From: a virus
Virus record (IMG/VR): IMGVR_UViG_3300037847_001407
Coordinates: 491 to 26,990 of that record
Direction: 5' to 3' (one strand)
Length of the DNA stretch: 26,500 bases
Shown: in pieces, positions 9,626 through 16,698 of the stretch
Layout of the letters: every line of letters starts with the position of its first letter
Numbering within the stretch: position 1 is the first letter of the stretch
The notes under the pieces: generated by a model
The model's database searches: none
Told to the model about the DNA's origin: nothing
Seen by the model: the letters and a program-made list of their open reading frames with translations, nothing else
Translations under genes and position numbers: made by a program

Positions 9626-9671
9626 AAAAAATGACGGTGGGGGAGCAAAGGGAGGATGCTCTACCCCACCG
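9626..9671 (-). terminator. terminator-like hairpin in the late-operon leader
   Basis: On the minus strand, CGGTGGGG (9671-9664) pairs with CCCCACCG (9642-9635) and an inner GAGC/GCTC extends the stem. It is followed by TCA and TTTTTT (9631-9626). It stands 19 bases before the first late gene rather than after a gene, which suggests attenuation or controlled antitermination of the late operon. Confidence 0.6.
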
Positions 9672-9696
9672 GAAGCGCCGGGAGACGTTGCGCTTC
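9672..9696. repeat. hairpin GAAGCGC/GCGCTTC abutting the leader terminator
   Basis: A perfect 7-base inverted repeat with an 11-base loop, directly upstream (minus strand) of the terminator stem with no spacer. The two stems could stack in the nascent leader RNA. Confidence 0.5.
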
Positions 9697-9710
9697 AAAT
9701 TTTAGTATAT

Positions 9711-9793
9711 AGTACATTATGTACTTTAACTAGAGATGTATATAATATATAATACTACTATGTACTATATAGTACATATGTACTATAGTACAT
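9711..9793. promoter_or_regulatory. AT-rich divergent control region with nested GTAC palindromes
   Basis: It contains AGTACAT-T-ATGTACT (9711-9725), an 18-base perfect palindrome ATGTACTATATAGTACAT (9760-9777) and an adjacent 16-base perfect palindrome ATGTACTATAGTACAT (9778-9793). Two overlapping TATAAT boxes lie at 9741-9746 and 9748-9753 on the plus strand; TTTAAC at 9725-9730 is 17 bases before the second, a weak -35. The region lies between the leftward late operon and the rightward gene set at 10012. A nearly identical module recurs at 22006-22042 on the other strand. Confidence 0.65.
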
Positions 9794-9794
9794 T

Positions 9795-9862
9795 AGCCTA
9801 GTCCATCCTATTCGGATGGGAACCAGCCCCATCCCGCCTTCGGGCATTTAGAGGTGGCTAGG
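9795..9862 (+). ncRNA. putative structured RNA element with competing hairpins
   Basis: GCCTAG (9796-9801) pairs with CTAGGC (9858-9863) and closes a multibranch loop holding CCATCC/GGATGG (9803-9808 with 9814-9819) and CCCG-CCTT-CGGG (9833-9844). GGATGGG (9814-9820) can instead pair with CCCATCC (9828-9834), destroying both inner hairpins. The element lies just downstream of the rightward promoter candidate. The rest of 9863-10011 holds a CCAGA/TCTGG hairpin (9875-9888) and no gene. Confidence 0.45.
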
Positions 9863-10011
9863 CGTTTTACCGGACCAGACAACTCTGGAAGCATGGTAGG
9901 GGAGAGCGGCTTTGGCTTTAATTGTAGAAAAAAAACCTACAGTATATAGTCATCACGAATCGGAAAAGTCAGAGCCGCAACACCTTTCTGAAAAGAAAGA
10001 GGGAGAGGCCA

Positions 10012-10397: not shown

Positions 10398-10640
10398 ATG
10401 TTTAAAGCTATCATTGTGGCTTGTCACATAGCCAACCCAAACAACTGCATAATTATAACGGATGAACGTGGACCATATGATACAGAAGAGAAGTGCCAAG
10501 CTAGAATCGAAGAAATGATACACGATTCGATTTCGATATTTCTGTACAAACAATGGCCTATGATTTTCAAACTAACAAGCTGTGTACACCCAGACGATAT
10601 GGAATTTACGAATGTCGGCACTAATAACAAACCTACCTAG
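10398..10640 (+). CDS. small conserved cysteine-containing protein, unknown function
   Basis: An 80-residue protein starting MFKAIIVACHIANPNNCIII, then GPYDTEEKCQARIEEMI, ending near FKLTSCVHPDDMEF. The Cys spacing and the order (hydrophobic strand, ExC-helix-EEM, strand-C-P) resemble small proteins I recall from marine phages and the adjacent gene. AAGGAG lies 9 bases before the ATG, which immediately follows the previous stop. The first 15 residues are hydrophobic but lack the basic start and cleavage site of a clear signal peptide. Function is unknown. Confidence 0.65.
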   Translation: MFKAIIVACHIANPNNCIIITDERGPYDTEEKCQARIEEMIHDSISIFLYKQWPMIFKLTSCVHPDDMEFTNVGTNNKPT

Positions 10641-10641
10641 C

Positions 10642-11247
10642 ATGAAAGTTTATGTTCGTAAGGAATACCTTATGGACCACCAAGAAGGCCACGGTGAATT
10701 TGTTGAGGGGCATTGGGTAACAGCGAAGTCCATTCCCGGCAGAGCCTTTTACTTTGAGACTTACCTACCCCATTACGGCGCTCTATACGACAAACTACCG
10801 ATTAGCGCCTTTGTATCAGAGCCTAAAACACCAGAACCGGACCTGTCCCTGCCCAATCTGCAATTTTGGAACTGTATGGACTACGGTGTCACGTCAATTT
10901 ACAAGCAATTTATCGGCTCCATGGATTTTGAGGTCCGAACGCGGGATGAGGGCAACTTTTACGGCACATATGTCTGTACACTGGACAATTATCACATCCA
11001 CGCGGACGAAATAGACTACTCAACGTCCGAAATTCCAGAAGAACACAAGTCATTTAACCTGATAGAGCTAGAGAATGGGCAATATGCACTGTACCCCAAC
11101 AACAGAATGCGGGTATATGACAACTCCCTGACACCAGAGAACCCATCAATGCCCGATTTCAAGGTATCTACCGAATATTATCAGGTAGAATCCGGCAATA
11201 AGTACAGGCTAGGGGATACAGAAGAATACTTTTATGAAAAAAAGTAG
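10642..11247 (+). CDS. unknown protein, 201 residues
   Basis: It starts MKVYVRKEYLMDHQEGHGEF and contains LPNLQFWNCMDYGVTSIYKQ and a tyrosine-rich C-terminal half. It is rich in aromatic residues, looks globular and soluble, and has no membrane segment. The frame opens 20 codons earlier inside the previous gene, but the ATG at 10642, one base after the preceding TAG, is the natural coupled start; no strong ribosome binding site is visible. It is the last gene of the rightward set. No family was recognised; the Tyr/Asp/Glu composition gives no safe functional hint. Confidence 0.65.
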   Translation: MKVYVRKEYLMDHQEGHGEFVEGHWVTAKSIPGRAFYFETYLPHYGALYDKLPISAFVSEPKTPEPDLSLPNLQFWNCMDYGVTSIYKQFIGSMDFEVRTRDEGNFYGTYVCTLDNYHIHADEIDYSTSEIPEEHKSFNLIELENGQYALYPNNRMRVYDNSLTPENPSMPDFKVSTEYYQVESGNKYRLGDTEEYFYEKK

Positions 11248-12541: not shown

Positions 12542-12595
12542 TTGTACCCATAGTACATTTAGGGGTTTACAATGCCTTTTAGATAGTCCATATAA
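12542..12595 (+). promoter_or_regulatory. GTAC site plus promoter candidate for the MoxR operon
   Basis: TTGTAC-CCATA-GTACAT (12542-12558, one mismatch, 5-base spacer) is followed by TTTACA (12566-12571) and TATAAG 19 bases later. The -35 and -10 are recognisable but the spacing is long. An operator overlapping or touching the -35 would fit repression of the rightward operon that begins at 12944. Confidence 0.4.
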
Positions 12596-12600
12596 GGGGA

Positions 12601-12910
12601 GGTTGCTCGCGCAACCGCTGGGTCAGCCCAGCTTCCACAGCCCCTGATGGCATGACGGCATTCTGGTTCACAGCCCCAGATTAGAGTGATTGGTCACCGC
12701 TCTAGATTTTGAGTTCCAAGCTATCTGGTATCGCCCTGAGATATCCGACACGCTCCGCGCTCCACCTCGACACTACGGCTGGCTGGTGTGGCGCGACAGT
12801 TCCCTGTCGGTGAGGTAGGGGTTCACGCCACTAGCTGTACGGTTCTCAACACTTTTGAGATTAGGCGGTGCTGATGCCGCCTACCTGTCACTGGGCATTG
12901 GTAGCCCAGT
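12601..12910 (+). ncRNA. leader or non-coding RNA with a tandem hairpin array
   Basis: Within 310 bases without a gene lie these stems. GGTTGC/GCAACC is at 12601-12616 and GCTGGG/CCCAGC, directly abutting, at 12617-12632. TCTGG/CCAGA is at 12662-12680 and TAGAG/CTCTA, with inner GTGA/TCAC, at 12682-12704. CGACAG/CTGTCG is at 12794-12809 and TCTCAA/TTGAGA at 12844-12860. TAGGCGG/CCGCCTA is at 12862-12883 and ACTGGGC/GCCCAGT at 12890-12910. CACAGCCCC occurs twice (about 12636 and 12669). The array ends about 20 bases before the ribosome binding site of the next gene. It does not fit a tRNA. Confidence 0.55.
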
Positions 12911-12943
12911 CTGAATGAGTTACCACGAAACAGGAGACTGAAC

Positions 12944-13237
12944 ATGACTGCATACCGCCACGCTAAAATCGCTGAATTACTTTCTATCTTTTGGGCTTGT
13001 AATGATGCTGACTCTGAGAACGCCCCCAACTGGACGCGACCAAATATGTCAGGCACAGTTTGCAATCCGCTATCACAGGCGATGAGGGCGTTACTGCACG
13101 CTGACTTTTATATCTATGACAACGCCAACGAATTGATTGAGCAGACCATGACCAATCTTATGGATAACTTTGCTCACTTTGATTACCAAGTGACTAGCGC
13201 GGTTAACTTTGTACTTTCTGATAACAATTGCTCATAA
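12944..13237 (+). CDS. unknown helical protein, first gene of MoxR operon
   Basis: A 97-residue, mostly helical, acidic protein starting MTAYRHAKIAELLSIFWACN, with ANELIEQTMTNLMDNFAHFD near the C-terminus. AGGAG lies 8 bases before the ATG. It follows the long structured leader. No family was recognised; no membrane segment or zinc motif is present. Position suggests an early-expressed phage factor. Confidence 0.65.
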   Translation: MTAYRHAKIAELLSIFWACNDADSENAPNWTRPNMSGTVCNPLSQAMRALLHADFYIYDNANELIEQTMTNLMDNFAHFDYQVTSAVNFVLSDNNCS

Positions 13238-13249
13238 GGAGGGGCTAAC

Positions 13250-13399
13250 ATGACGCAACCAAAAGAAATATGCGCCAATGAATACTGCGAAGAAAAAGGT
13301 ATCCATGAATGTTATGGATTTTATTACTGTGATGAGTGCATTGATGAACACGTTTACGATGAATGTGACCCTGACCCTGTAAAGAAAAAAGCTACCTGA
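13250..13399 (+). CDS. small cysteine-rich putative zinc protein
   Basis: A 49-residue protein with six Cys and two His: IC-ANEYC, then HEC, then YYCDECIDEH, then DEC. The arrangement C-x4-C...C-x5-C-x2-C...H suggests one or two zinc knuckles. A perfect AGGAGG lies 7 bases before the ATG, in the 12-base gap after the previous gene. Three hairpins follow the gene. Similar small zinc-binding proteins are frequent in phage early regions; no function is assigned. Confidence 0.72.
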   Translation: MTQPKEICANEYCEEKGIHECYGFYYCDECIDEHVYDECDPDPVKKKAT

Positions 13400-13402
13400 T
13401 GA

Positions 13403-13465
13403 TGCTGGCATGAGACACCAGCGAAACACCGCGCCTTGCGGTGTCGTAGCGTCTCGCTACTTTTT
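13403..13465 (+). terminator. triple hairpin ending in T5, partial terminator
   Basis: Stems GCTGG/CCAGC (13403-13422), ACACCGC/GCGGTGT (13426-13444) and GTAGCG/CGCTAC (13446-13460) follow one another, and the last is followed by TTTTT. The downstream gene has no evident promoter of its own, so this may be a leaky terminator or processing site that sets stoichiometry. Confidence 0.55.
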
Positions 13466-14467: not shown

Positions 14468-15481
14468 ATGCGTATTTCACAAGCAAAAGCCATTGTCGAG
14501 GCTTCAATCGACAGCCAAATCCAGCACGTCAATGGACGTGATGCTCAACGCCCTATTGCCTACCTTGTCGGTGGTGCTGGTCTGGGTAAAACTTCAGTCG
14601 TTCAGACTATCGCTAATGAGCGCGAGGTTGGCCTCAATATCTTATCGCTGGCTCAATATGATGCTGGCGAGTTGGCTGGCTGGCTTGTCGCTGACGGTGA
14701 CAGTATGAAGCGACTACGGCCTGATTGGATGCCAGCCGATGGTGAGGGTATCTTGTTTTTGGATGAGTTGCCGCAAGCACCTGTAGCCAATCAGAACATT
14801 GCCGCACAGTTGGTCAATGAGCGCCGTATCGGTGAGCATCGCTTGCCTGACGGCTGGTCAATCGTATGCGCTGGCAACCGTACCAGTGACAGGGCTGGCA
14901 CTAACAATATGCCAAGCCACCTCAAAGACAGGCTGTTGTTTGTCGAGGTCGAGGCTGACCTAGAGGACACTGTGGCCTATATGAACAGCGTTGATGTGTC
15001 ACCGCTAATCACTGGCTTCCTGCGGTTCCGCCCAGAGTTGCTTCACAAGTTTGACCGTGATGCTAATTCATGCCCATCACCTCGCTCATGGGAGCGTGTG
15101 GACACCATGATGAAATGGGGTCTGGATGCAGTGAACGAGCAGGAGGCTGTTGCTGGTCAGGTTGGACGTGGCGCTTGCGCTGAGTTCATGGGGTACAAGC
15201 AGATACACGATACCTGCCCTGACATTGACGCAGTGATTGCTGACCCTGACGGTGCGGCTATCAGTGAAGACCCTGCTGTATGTTATGCAGTGTCTGCCGC
15301 CTTGGCTCACAAGGCTAATGACAAGAACATTGGCAACGTCATCAAATACCTGACACGCCTACCGCACAAAGAGTTTGCGGTGTTCGCCGTCAAAGACGCA
15401 TACAACCGCAATCCTGCCATCAAACAGACACAGGCGTTTCGCCAGTTCCTGTTGTCACATGGCAAAGAGTTGATGCTCTAA
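14468..15481 (+). CDS. MoxR-type AAA+ ATPase
   Basis: A 337-residue AAA+ ATPase: Walker A GGAGLGKT at residues 35-42, Walker B ILFLDE at 95-100, sensor-1 Asn137 in AGNRTSD, and a probable Arg finger in HLKDRLLF (Arg155). The layout fits the MoxR branch, whose members usually work as ring-shaped chaperones that load metal or remodel a partner containing a VWA domain encoded next door. That partner is present 65 bases downstream. GGGAG lies about 6 bases before the ATG. The length is typical. The target in a phage infection is unknown; virion assembly, host enzyme remodelling or counter-defence are all open. Confidence 0.88.
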   Translation: MRISQAKAIVEASIDSQIQHVNGRDAQRPIAYLVGGAGLGKTSVVQTIANEREVGLNILSLAQYDAGELAGWLVADGDSMKRLRPDWMPADGEGILFLDELPQAPVANQNIAAQLVNERRIGEHRLPDGWSIVCAGNRTSDRAGTNNMPSHLKDRLLFVEVEADLEDTVAYMNSVDVSPLITGFLRFRPELLHKFDRDANSCPSPRSWERVDTMMKWGLDAVNEQEAVAGQVGRGACAEFMGYKQIHDTCPDIDAVIADPDGAAISEDPAVCYAVSAALAHKANDKNIGNVIKYLTRLPHKEFAVFAVKDAYNRNPAIKQTQAFRQFLLSHGKELML

Positions 15482-15488
15482 CATTTGA

Positions 15489-15510
15489 TGGGGCGGTTCA
15501 CGCCGCCCCA
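15489..15510 (+). repeat. intercistronic hairpin between MoxR and VWA genes
   Basis: TGGGGCGG-TTCACG-CCGCCCCA, a perfect 8-pair stem starting 7 bases after the MoxR stop codon. No T-tract. It is followed at once by a GTAC-family site. Confidence 0.55.
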
Positions 15511-15511
15511 C

Positions 15512-15527
15512 CTATACCATCGTACAA
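15512..15527. promoter_or_regulatory. GTAC-family site upstream of the VWA gene
   Basis: CTATAC-CATC-GTACAA: perfect right half, 4 of 6 on the left. It lies 7 bases upstream of the GGGAG ribosome binding site of the VWA gene. Confidence 0.4.
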
Positions 15528-15546
15528 ATTTTTCGGGAGTTCTGAC

Positions 15547-16698
15547 ATGGATGCAGAAACAAAAATCGCTCGTGCAAAGACTAGGCTAGTGCTAGACCAC
15601 CCATTCTGGGGCAGTCTGGTGCTTGGCACTGCCTTTCATAAGGATGACATACCTACCATGTGTACAAACGGTCAGTGGATAAAATGGTCTGCTGATTTTG
15701 TTGATAAGTGTTCTGACAAGAATGTCATATTCACTGTAGCGCATGAGATATCACACATATTCCTCAAGCATTGCGACCCCATCAAAGAGATTGATGGCAA
15801 GCCTGTGAATGCTGAGGTTCAAAACATGGCTATGGATTATGTAATCAATCCTATACTTATTGACGGTAATGTTGGTGAGATGCCAGAGGGCGGCCTGTAC
15901 GACCCCAAATATCATGGCTGGTCATGGCTCAAAGTTTACCGCGAGTTGATGCAGATGGATGAGAGTGAACGCCCTCAGCCACAGCCATGGGGTGGCAATG
16001 TCGGCTCACCAGAAGATGACAATGGCAATGAAATGCAAGGCTCAGAACTTGAACAGTTCAACGCTACAATAGACCAGCGTGTGTTTCTGGCCGCTACTGG
16101 CGCTCAGTCTGCTGGTAAGTTGCCATCCGCTATCGCTGAGATAGTCGAGCGTATGCGGCGCTCTAAGGTTGACTGGTGTGACGTGTTCAATCGCTTCATT
16201 GGCGGTGACCAGCCTGATGACTACACGTTCCGCAAGCCCAACAAAAAAGTCTGGTATACGCAGGGCATATACACACCCAGCATTGAAAAGATTGGTGTGG
16301 GTGATGTCGTGGTTGCTGTAGATAGCTCAGGCTCAACTGGTGGACACCATCGGGAATATTTCTTTGGTGTTCTTAATCAGGTTATCGAAGACCATAATCC
16401 TACTTCTGTTACAGTCATTACTTGTGATGCTGAGGTTCAAACCGTCAGGCGTTATGAGCAGGGTGACATTGTAGAAGACATGGATGTTAAGGGTAACGGT
16501 GGCACTAGAGTGGAGCCAGTGTTCAGATATGTCAGTGAAGAAAATATCAAGTGCGATGCTCTTGTGTATCTCACAGACATGGGCATCTGGGATTTTCCAG
16601 ACAACACGCCTGACTATCCTGTGCTGTGGGTGTCAACAGACCCACAGTGCAATGACGCACCATTTGGTGAGACAACACGCATTGAGGTGGCGGCATAG
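15547..16698 (+). CDS. metallopeptidase-like / VWA protein (DUF2201 type), MoxR partner
   Basis: A 383-residue two-domain protein. The N-terminal domain has the zinc-protease signature HEISH at residues 66-70 in FTVAHEISHIFLKH, as in the putative metallopeptidase domain of DUF2201. The C-terminal domain is VWA-like with an intact metal-ion-dependent adhesion site: DSSGS at 259-263, Thr320 in NGGTR and Asp344 in LTDMG. A Pro/Gly/Asn/Glu-rich linker spans about 145-180. GGGAG lies 6-7 bases before the ATG. MoxR ATPases act on such VWA proteins. Whether the peptidase is active is unknown, but the catalytic residues visible are retained. Confidence 0.85.
   Translation: MDAETKIARAKTRLVLDHPFWGSLVLGTAFHKDDIPTMCTNGQWIKWSADFVDKCSDKNVIFTVAHEISHIFLKHCDPIKEIDGKPVNAEVQNMAMDYVINPILIDGNVGEMPEGGLYDPKYHGWSWLKVYRELMQMDESERPQPQPWGGNVGSPEDDNGNEMQGSELEQFNATIDQRVFLAATGAQSAGKLPSAIAEIVERMRRSKVDWCDVFNRFIGGDQPDDYTFRKPNKKVWYTQGIYTPSIEKIGVGDVVVAVDSSGSTGGHHREYFFGVLNQVIEDHNPTSVTVITCDAEVQTVRRYEQGDIVEDMDVKGNGGTRVEPVFRYVSEENIKCDALVYLTDMGIWDFPDNTPDYPVLWVSTDPQCNDAPFGETTRIEVAA

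Follow-up and report, generated by a model that had tools for sequence, protein, structure and literature searches.

A phage early-operon leader that probably ends in a type III hammerhead and yields a transcript diced by hammerheads

Phages are already known to carry clusters of hammerheads by which polycistronic RNA is cut (PMC3088659). In the prophage clusters described by Perreault et al. in 2011, several hammerhead types flank single genes of an operon, the identities of these genes vary and processing of a long transcript has been proposed; tandem sets cut in vitro, and clustered phage hammerheads cut in E. coli as well (PMC3088659). HHphage of the haloviruses HF1 and HF2 closely precedes the start codon of the first early-operon gene and carries an insertion near C3, and a transcript end was mapped at most 3 nucleotides from its cut site (PMC3088659). 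Hammerhead and twister ribozymes are enriched near genes of Mu-like phages (PMC10085705 and its references 25, 26), and the engineered insulator RiboJ, a hammerhead joined to a 23-nt hairpin (PMC7536230, PMC6206723), raises expression (PMC6206723). The purpose of hammerheads in bacteria and phages is an open question.

Here, we describe two hammerhead elements in the window, i.e. the whole stretch of 26,500 nucleotides that was analysed (positions 491 to 26,990 of IMG/VR record IMGVR_UViG_3300037847_001407), one at the end of an early-operon leader and one after the second gene (Table 1). What we show is sequence, covariation, position, overlap with a ribosome-binding site and the edges of exchanged cassettes, and we consider it probable that the leader ends in a type III hammerhead and that the early transcript is diced by hammerheads. 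The locus resembles the prophage clusters in its different hammerhead types around single operon genes of varying identity and in the processing proposed for it; unlike them, it has a leader element that is fused to a ribosome-binding site and preceded by a structured leader whose family can change, the core is altered in most copies, and the coincidence of cassette edges with hammerheads is shown statistically. HHphage shares its position and its C3-near insertion with leader elements of this lineage, but it is a single element of an archaeal saltern virus for which no leader family has been described. A hairpin at the new 5' end of the mRNA links RiboJ to our type I element; in RiboJ, however, it was added after the ribozyme, whereas here it is built with the 3' strand of stem I, with which it covaries. 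With the Mu-like context the locus has the phage setting in common, and the window too holds a Mu-gpT-DE RNA, but the hammerheads lie in a MoxR/VWA operon, and the phage, which has terminase and primase-helicase, looks virulent. Judged by the open-access literature, the ribosome-binding-site overlap, a structured leader that can change, the frequency of core variants and the cassette-edge coincidence are new.

Table 1. Features of the early-operon region (positions in the window)
Feature	Position	Strand	Details and basis
Promoter candidate	12566-12596	+	TTTACA 12566-12571, 19 nt, TATAAG 12591-12596; read from sequence
Structured leader RNA, predicted 5' cleavage product of ~290 nt	12600-12889	+	Hairpin density, covarying helices in related families, unit replacement in L005 and L003
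Hairpins of the array	12601-12616, 12617-12632, 12662-12680, 12794-12809, 12844-12860, 12862-12883, 12890-12910	+	
Two abutting hairpins at the transcript start	12601-12632	+	Hairpin rule; two hairpins kept in relatives
Hairpin directly 5' of the hammerhead	12862-12883	+	Loop TGCTGATG; hairpin rule; stem changes in relatives
Type III hammerhead element	12884-12934	+	Predicted cut 12889/12890, after GUC; leave-out model R3, stem I covariation, Rfam Hammerhead_3 below cut-off in L004
Type III stem III	12884-12888 with 12930-12934	+	
Type III stem I	12890-12896 with 12904-12910	+	
Type III core	12911-12918	+	CTGAATGA, one extra A
Type III GAAA	12927-12930	+	Predicted cut 12889/12890, after GUC
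Loop-loop pseudoknot	12900-12924	+	GGT 12900-12902 with ACC 12922-12924; pairing switches in relatives
Ribosome-binding site of gene 1	12932-12936	+	AGGAG; overlaps 3' strand of stem III
Gene 1, 97 aa, exchangeable	12944-13237	+	No family found
Gene 2, 49 aa	13250-13399	+	Homologue in L038 and L040
Type I hammerhead	13391-13450	+	Stem I 13391-13395 with 13446-13450; core CTGATGA 13396-13402, then an additional T; predicted cut 13445/13446; covariation
Type I GAAA	13423-13426	+	
Hairpin at the predicted new 5' end	13446-13460	+	GTAGC-GTCTC-GCTAC; covaries
Gene 3, 226 aa	13490-14170	+	No family found; hammerheads on both flanks in several relatives
MoxR-type AAA ATPase and VWA/metallopeptidase-like protein	14468-16698	+	14468-15481 and 15547-16698; conserved downstream operon genes

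The preliminary description had reported eight inverted repeats in the leader. Counting non-overlapping, perfect Watson-Crick stems of at least 5 bp with loops of 3-10 nucleotides, we found seven within 12590-12945 (356 nt). The array itself was borne out: seven hairpins appeared in 4 of 1000 dinucleotide shuffles and the array's six stems of at least 6 bp in none of 1000, and among 523 tiles of the window this one ranked first in hairpin density, in line with the claimed excess over nearby sequence. The exact abutting of the first two hairpins was confirmed, and so was the lack of a credible protein frame; none was found in the stretch, which relatives swap entirely. Is the hairpin density a common trait of such leaders? 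In 42 related leaders a raised density was not found (2.0 hairpins per 260 nt versus 2.6 in downstream windows), and the density is therefore a local trait and not a conserved signal. The folding energy of the whole stretch was no better than that of shuffles (z of -0.84 on the + strand and -1.94 on the - strand), and over the 42 related leaders it was uninformative (mean z of -0.5).

A promoter had been proposed upstream of the array. The sister phage L004 has TTGACA at the TTTACA position of the candidate and L134 has AGTCCATATAAGGGGAG in common with the window there; a consensus scan of the + strand found no promoter at this place. Judged only by TTTACA/TTGACA, TATAAG and their conservation in relatives, a promoter would lie here and transcription would start near 12600. 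The site downstream of it holds several unrelated leader versions (families A, B, C and D). In family C, 11 of the 31 pairs predicted by RNAalifold are changed on both sides, while covariation in family A is modest (4 of 41 pairs, RNAalifold). The stem directly 5' of the hammerhead, TAGGCGG/CCGCCTA in the window, becomes TGCGCGG/CCGCGCA, GGGCGG/CCGCCC or TGGCGG/CCGCCA in relatives. The earlier proposal of a structured RNA or regulatory leader thus holds as a non-coding early-operon leader with compensatory changes, which the suggested comparison of relatives reveals both in the hammerhead and in the conserved hairpins; it does not hold as an undifferentiated array, since its 3'-most hairpin (12890-12910) forms stem I in the type III element. 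GOLLD and ROOL had been named as precedents. A large ornate RNA of that kind would likewise be structured, non-coding and phage-borne, but we find this reading hardly conceivable for a leader of about 290 nt with unrelated versions at one site and a hammerhead at its end; moreover, an Rfam search of the window at permissive threshold linked it to neither of the two, nor to any Rfam family at this place.

The leader may be freed as an RNA of its own, about 290 nt long, given the predicted cut at the 3' end. Two roles are possible: it could act on RNA polymerase in the manner of put, or be a free RNA that works in trans. According to one alternative, the main function lies in the leader, upstream of the ribozyme, where the two abutting start hairpins would act like the put RNA of HK022 against termination, and the ribozyme would serve only for trimming. 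The tandem hairpins indeed adjoin the presumed start, and relatives keep two hairpins there that differ in their stems, GTCATCTGC..GCAGATTGAC and GGGG-ATCA-CCCC being examples. The put RNAs consist of two stem-loops near an early promoter; they measure about 70 nt and are active when untethered from the nascent RNA (PMC9378689), so that cutting would be tolerable. However, two hairpins are a weak criterion, no link by sequence was seen, no conserved terminator came to light in the operon and the likeness in function is a guess; we regard this alternative as improbable.

Relatives were fetched via gene 3, the terminase small subunit and DNA patterns, and hammerheads were spotted by eye in their comparison before a scanner was applied. 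In all of them the leader closes with CCTGTC, followed by a hairpin, a segment resembling CTGANGA and GAAACAGG, and this series folds as a type III hammerhead with stem III (CCUGU/ACAGG), GUC at the cut, the hairpin as stem I, the core, a minimal stem II and GAAA. In the window, three helices surround the core with stem III open, stem II is a single G-C pair, and GAAA and the GUC cleavage triplet are present; the canonical core CUGANGA is absent, as CTGAATGA has one inserted A. Judged by its sequence, 12884-12934 is a homologue of hammerheads whose core is a variant one, and not a canonical hammerhead. A covariance model built from eight relatives with the window left out (R3) matches the element with an E value of 6.4e-17 and places the extra A after CUGA. 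In stem I, 100% of the cells pair and four of seven pairs are changed on both sides. The pseudoknot is constant as GGT/ACC in subfamily A4 and occurs as CGT/ACG and TGT/ACA in a second subfamily. The scanner gave scores of 18 and 14 in the window, while 150 shuffles reached at least 14 once and 18 never. The Rfam models RF00008, RF00163 and RF02276 detected no hammerhead in the window even at permissive threshold; Hammerhead_3 gave E values of 0.0004 in L055 and 0.083 on the same element of L004, both with scores below cut-off. About 38 related uncultured phages have such an element at the end of their leader, the 38 elements being 42 regex matches minus four (in L022, L032 and L048 and the second in L030) that were dropped as chance matches. 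The leader hammerhead of L036 (8607-8675), like those of L042, L057 and L058, has an extra hairpin of about 20 nt beside the core (TTCCTGCTGTTGCAGGGTTTA), possibly a modular insertion.

The cores of the 38 leader elements fall into 13 canonical ones, three with an insertion after A6, the window included, and 22 with an extra or changed nucleotide near C3. An insertion after A6 has been reported to lower activity, as have insertions near C3, where the early transcript of the virus nonetheless starts at the cut site (PMC3088659). Since variants of both kinds are reported to be low in activity, the leader copy in the window may cut slowly or not at all. A serious, if rather unlikely, alternative is that the leader element descends from a hammerhead, has ceased to cut and retains its fold solely to mask the ribosome-binding site of gene 1, as a non-catalytic regulator of translation, with only the type I element at work. 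This would fit the changed cores of 25 of the 38 elements, which nevertheless keep the stems, the pseudoknot and the overlap with the site, and the insertion in the window, A6a, that is reported to be slow (PMC3088659). On the other hand, GUC and GAAA are invariant in the leader elements, whereas lost cutting would let GUC drift, and the fully canonical elements speak against it too; HHphage and HHmeta, with insertions near C3, are still slow cutters or seemingly active in vivo (PMC3088659). The sisters L004 and L005 have canonical leader cores, unlike the window. Many natural core-insertion copies stand beside canonical sisters in near-identical phages and would permit a direct comparison of cleavage rate and expression, and the lineage offers dozens of natural hammerhead variants at one fixed site.

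In our preferred reading, the type III element is predicted to cut after GUC, which would release the leader and leave an mRNA that starts with the stem I hairpin and may be protected. The cut would also remove the CCUGU strand paired to ACAGG and thereby free AGGAG of gene 1. The 3' strand of stem III contains the start of the ribosome-binding site, which reads AGGAG, AGGGA or AGGGG, in 36 of the 38 elements, and in these leader elements the start codon follows 12-17 nt past the A of CAGG. Unmasking by cutting is suggested by the fold and stays conditional because the accessibility predicted by RNAfold does not rise in the window (0.42 before and after cleavage; the mean of relatives goes from 0.39 to 0.54). 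The cut strand over the ribosome-binding site, the hairpin-first products and the elements at the edges of exchanged cassettes together make up a testable role.

The second element, a type I hammerhead, has three helices with an open stem I, CTGATGA and GAAA, and GTC is the cleavage triplet in every aligned sequence. The extra U between core and stem II is common to most relatives, and insertions of one or two nucleotides do occur at this border (PMC10085705). Over 25 distinct sequences, window included, 98.9% of the cells pair and 14 of 22 pairs are changed on both sides, with 88 two-sided cells versus 24 in shuffles; as the window is among the 25, the score of the type I model is partly circular, while covariation and scanner control are not. 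The type I cut would part gene 3 and everything downstream from the preceding transcript and leave a second 5' hairpin, in which the freed 3' strand pairs with another stem I strand copy located immediately downstream. Four of the five pairs of this hairpin are changed on both sides, and its loop (13451-13455) can pair with loop II (13412-13416), a pairing that covaries as well. A reading of the hairpin and the following T5 as a terminator was rejected, the T run not being conserved. The stop codon of gene 2 sits in the type I core, within 13391-13402, and in many relatives TAG or TAA of the upstream gene abuts the hammerhead; ribosomes terminating at the gene 2 stop could affect the folding of the hammerhead.

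Two hammerheads in the window compare with up to four in related marine phages. In L059, a single type III element is accompanied by three of type I, and the four precede the first genes, gene 4, gene 3 and MoxR. L055, L040, L031 and L032 are arranged similarly, and hammerheads stand before successive genes in L059, L055, L031 and L032. By such cuts the early transcript would be split into units whose 5' ends are independent of upstream sequence, which fits a swapping of whole leaders and genes between hammerheads. Window and L005 are about 91% identical up to the presumed transcript start, have unrelated leaders and regain identity from 12884 on, where the hammerhead starts; the leader is replaced as a unit in L003 as well. 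Compared with L004, the leader is kept and the gene 1 region differs from 12948 to 13387, ending where the second hammerhead begins. In a set of 31 replacements, each flanked on both sides by an alignment of 150 nt or more, 22 of 62 cassette edges were at most 20 nt away from a hammerhead edge versus 3.3 expected, an approximately 7-fold excess that is to be read as enrichment and not as a significance test, as the pairs are non-independent. We rejected an exchange at the RNA level via cut ends, as in retrozymes or circles, because the edges fall on the outer limits of the elements rather than on the cut sites. The same match with the outer limits would favour the idea that the sequences are kept mainly as short conserved DNA linkers, at which phages recombine by homology, and not for RNA processing; all helices, however, show compensatory changes, which indicate selection on RNA pairing that a linker does not need and so speak against this as the only reason, and we judge this explanation very improbable. 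Returning to hammerheads that act as RNA, we tentatively entertain a further possibility: they could be natural insulators that give each cassette its own 5' end and, at the leader element, also unmask the ribosome-binding site, with a fast-changing leader RNA set free at a rate fixed by deliberately slow cores. As insulators, they would make leaders and genes exchangeable between hammerheads without disturbing their neighbours.

The phage encodes terminase, portal, head protein, primase-helicase and exonuclease. Its nearest named terminases belong to marine and lake phages, including the Pelagibacter phages HTVC027P and HTVC023P (51-60% identity); no hammerhead elements were found in the examined genome parts of these cultured, distant relatives, and a DNA search in named phages gave no match. 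A genome scan for the type I pattern returned 31 contigs, of which only L061 has a real copy; this short contig in an Akkermansiaceae bin carries the present phage lineage and is probably mis-binned phage DNA. The sole Rfam match in the window is the Mu-gpT-DE RNA (RF03012, 59 bits) at 1375-1427 on the - strand, upstream of ORF 895-1377. In its outer helix a CCUG-type strand pairs with a ribosome-binding-site strand, as in the leader hammerhead, and Rfam weakly scores the leader element of L055 as Mu-gpT-DE (18 bits, E 0.44); the two RNAs may be structurally akin. A second hairpin-rich, gene-free stretch lies at 9630-9900, with many TAGTACAT/ATGTACTA palindromes at about 9700-9795 and no Rfam match, beside a ferredoxin-type operon; the protein encoded at 10582-11247 (+) matches a PHROG family annotated as ferredoxin, an auxiliary metabolic gene. 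Finally, a weak suhB/mmgR-like match at a terminator in L004 (11617-11702 on the - strand, E 0.82) perhaps hints at an alphaproteobacterial host.
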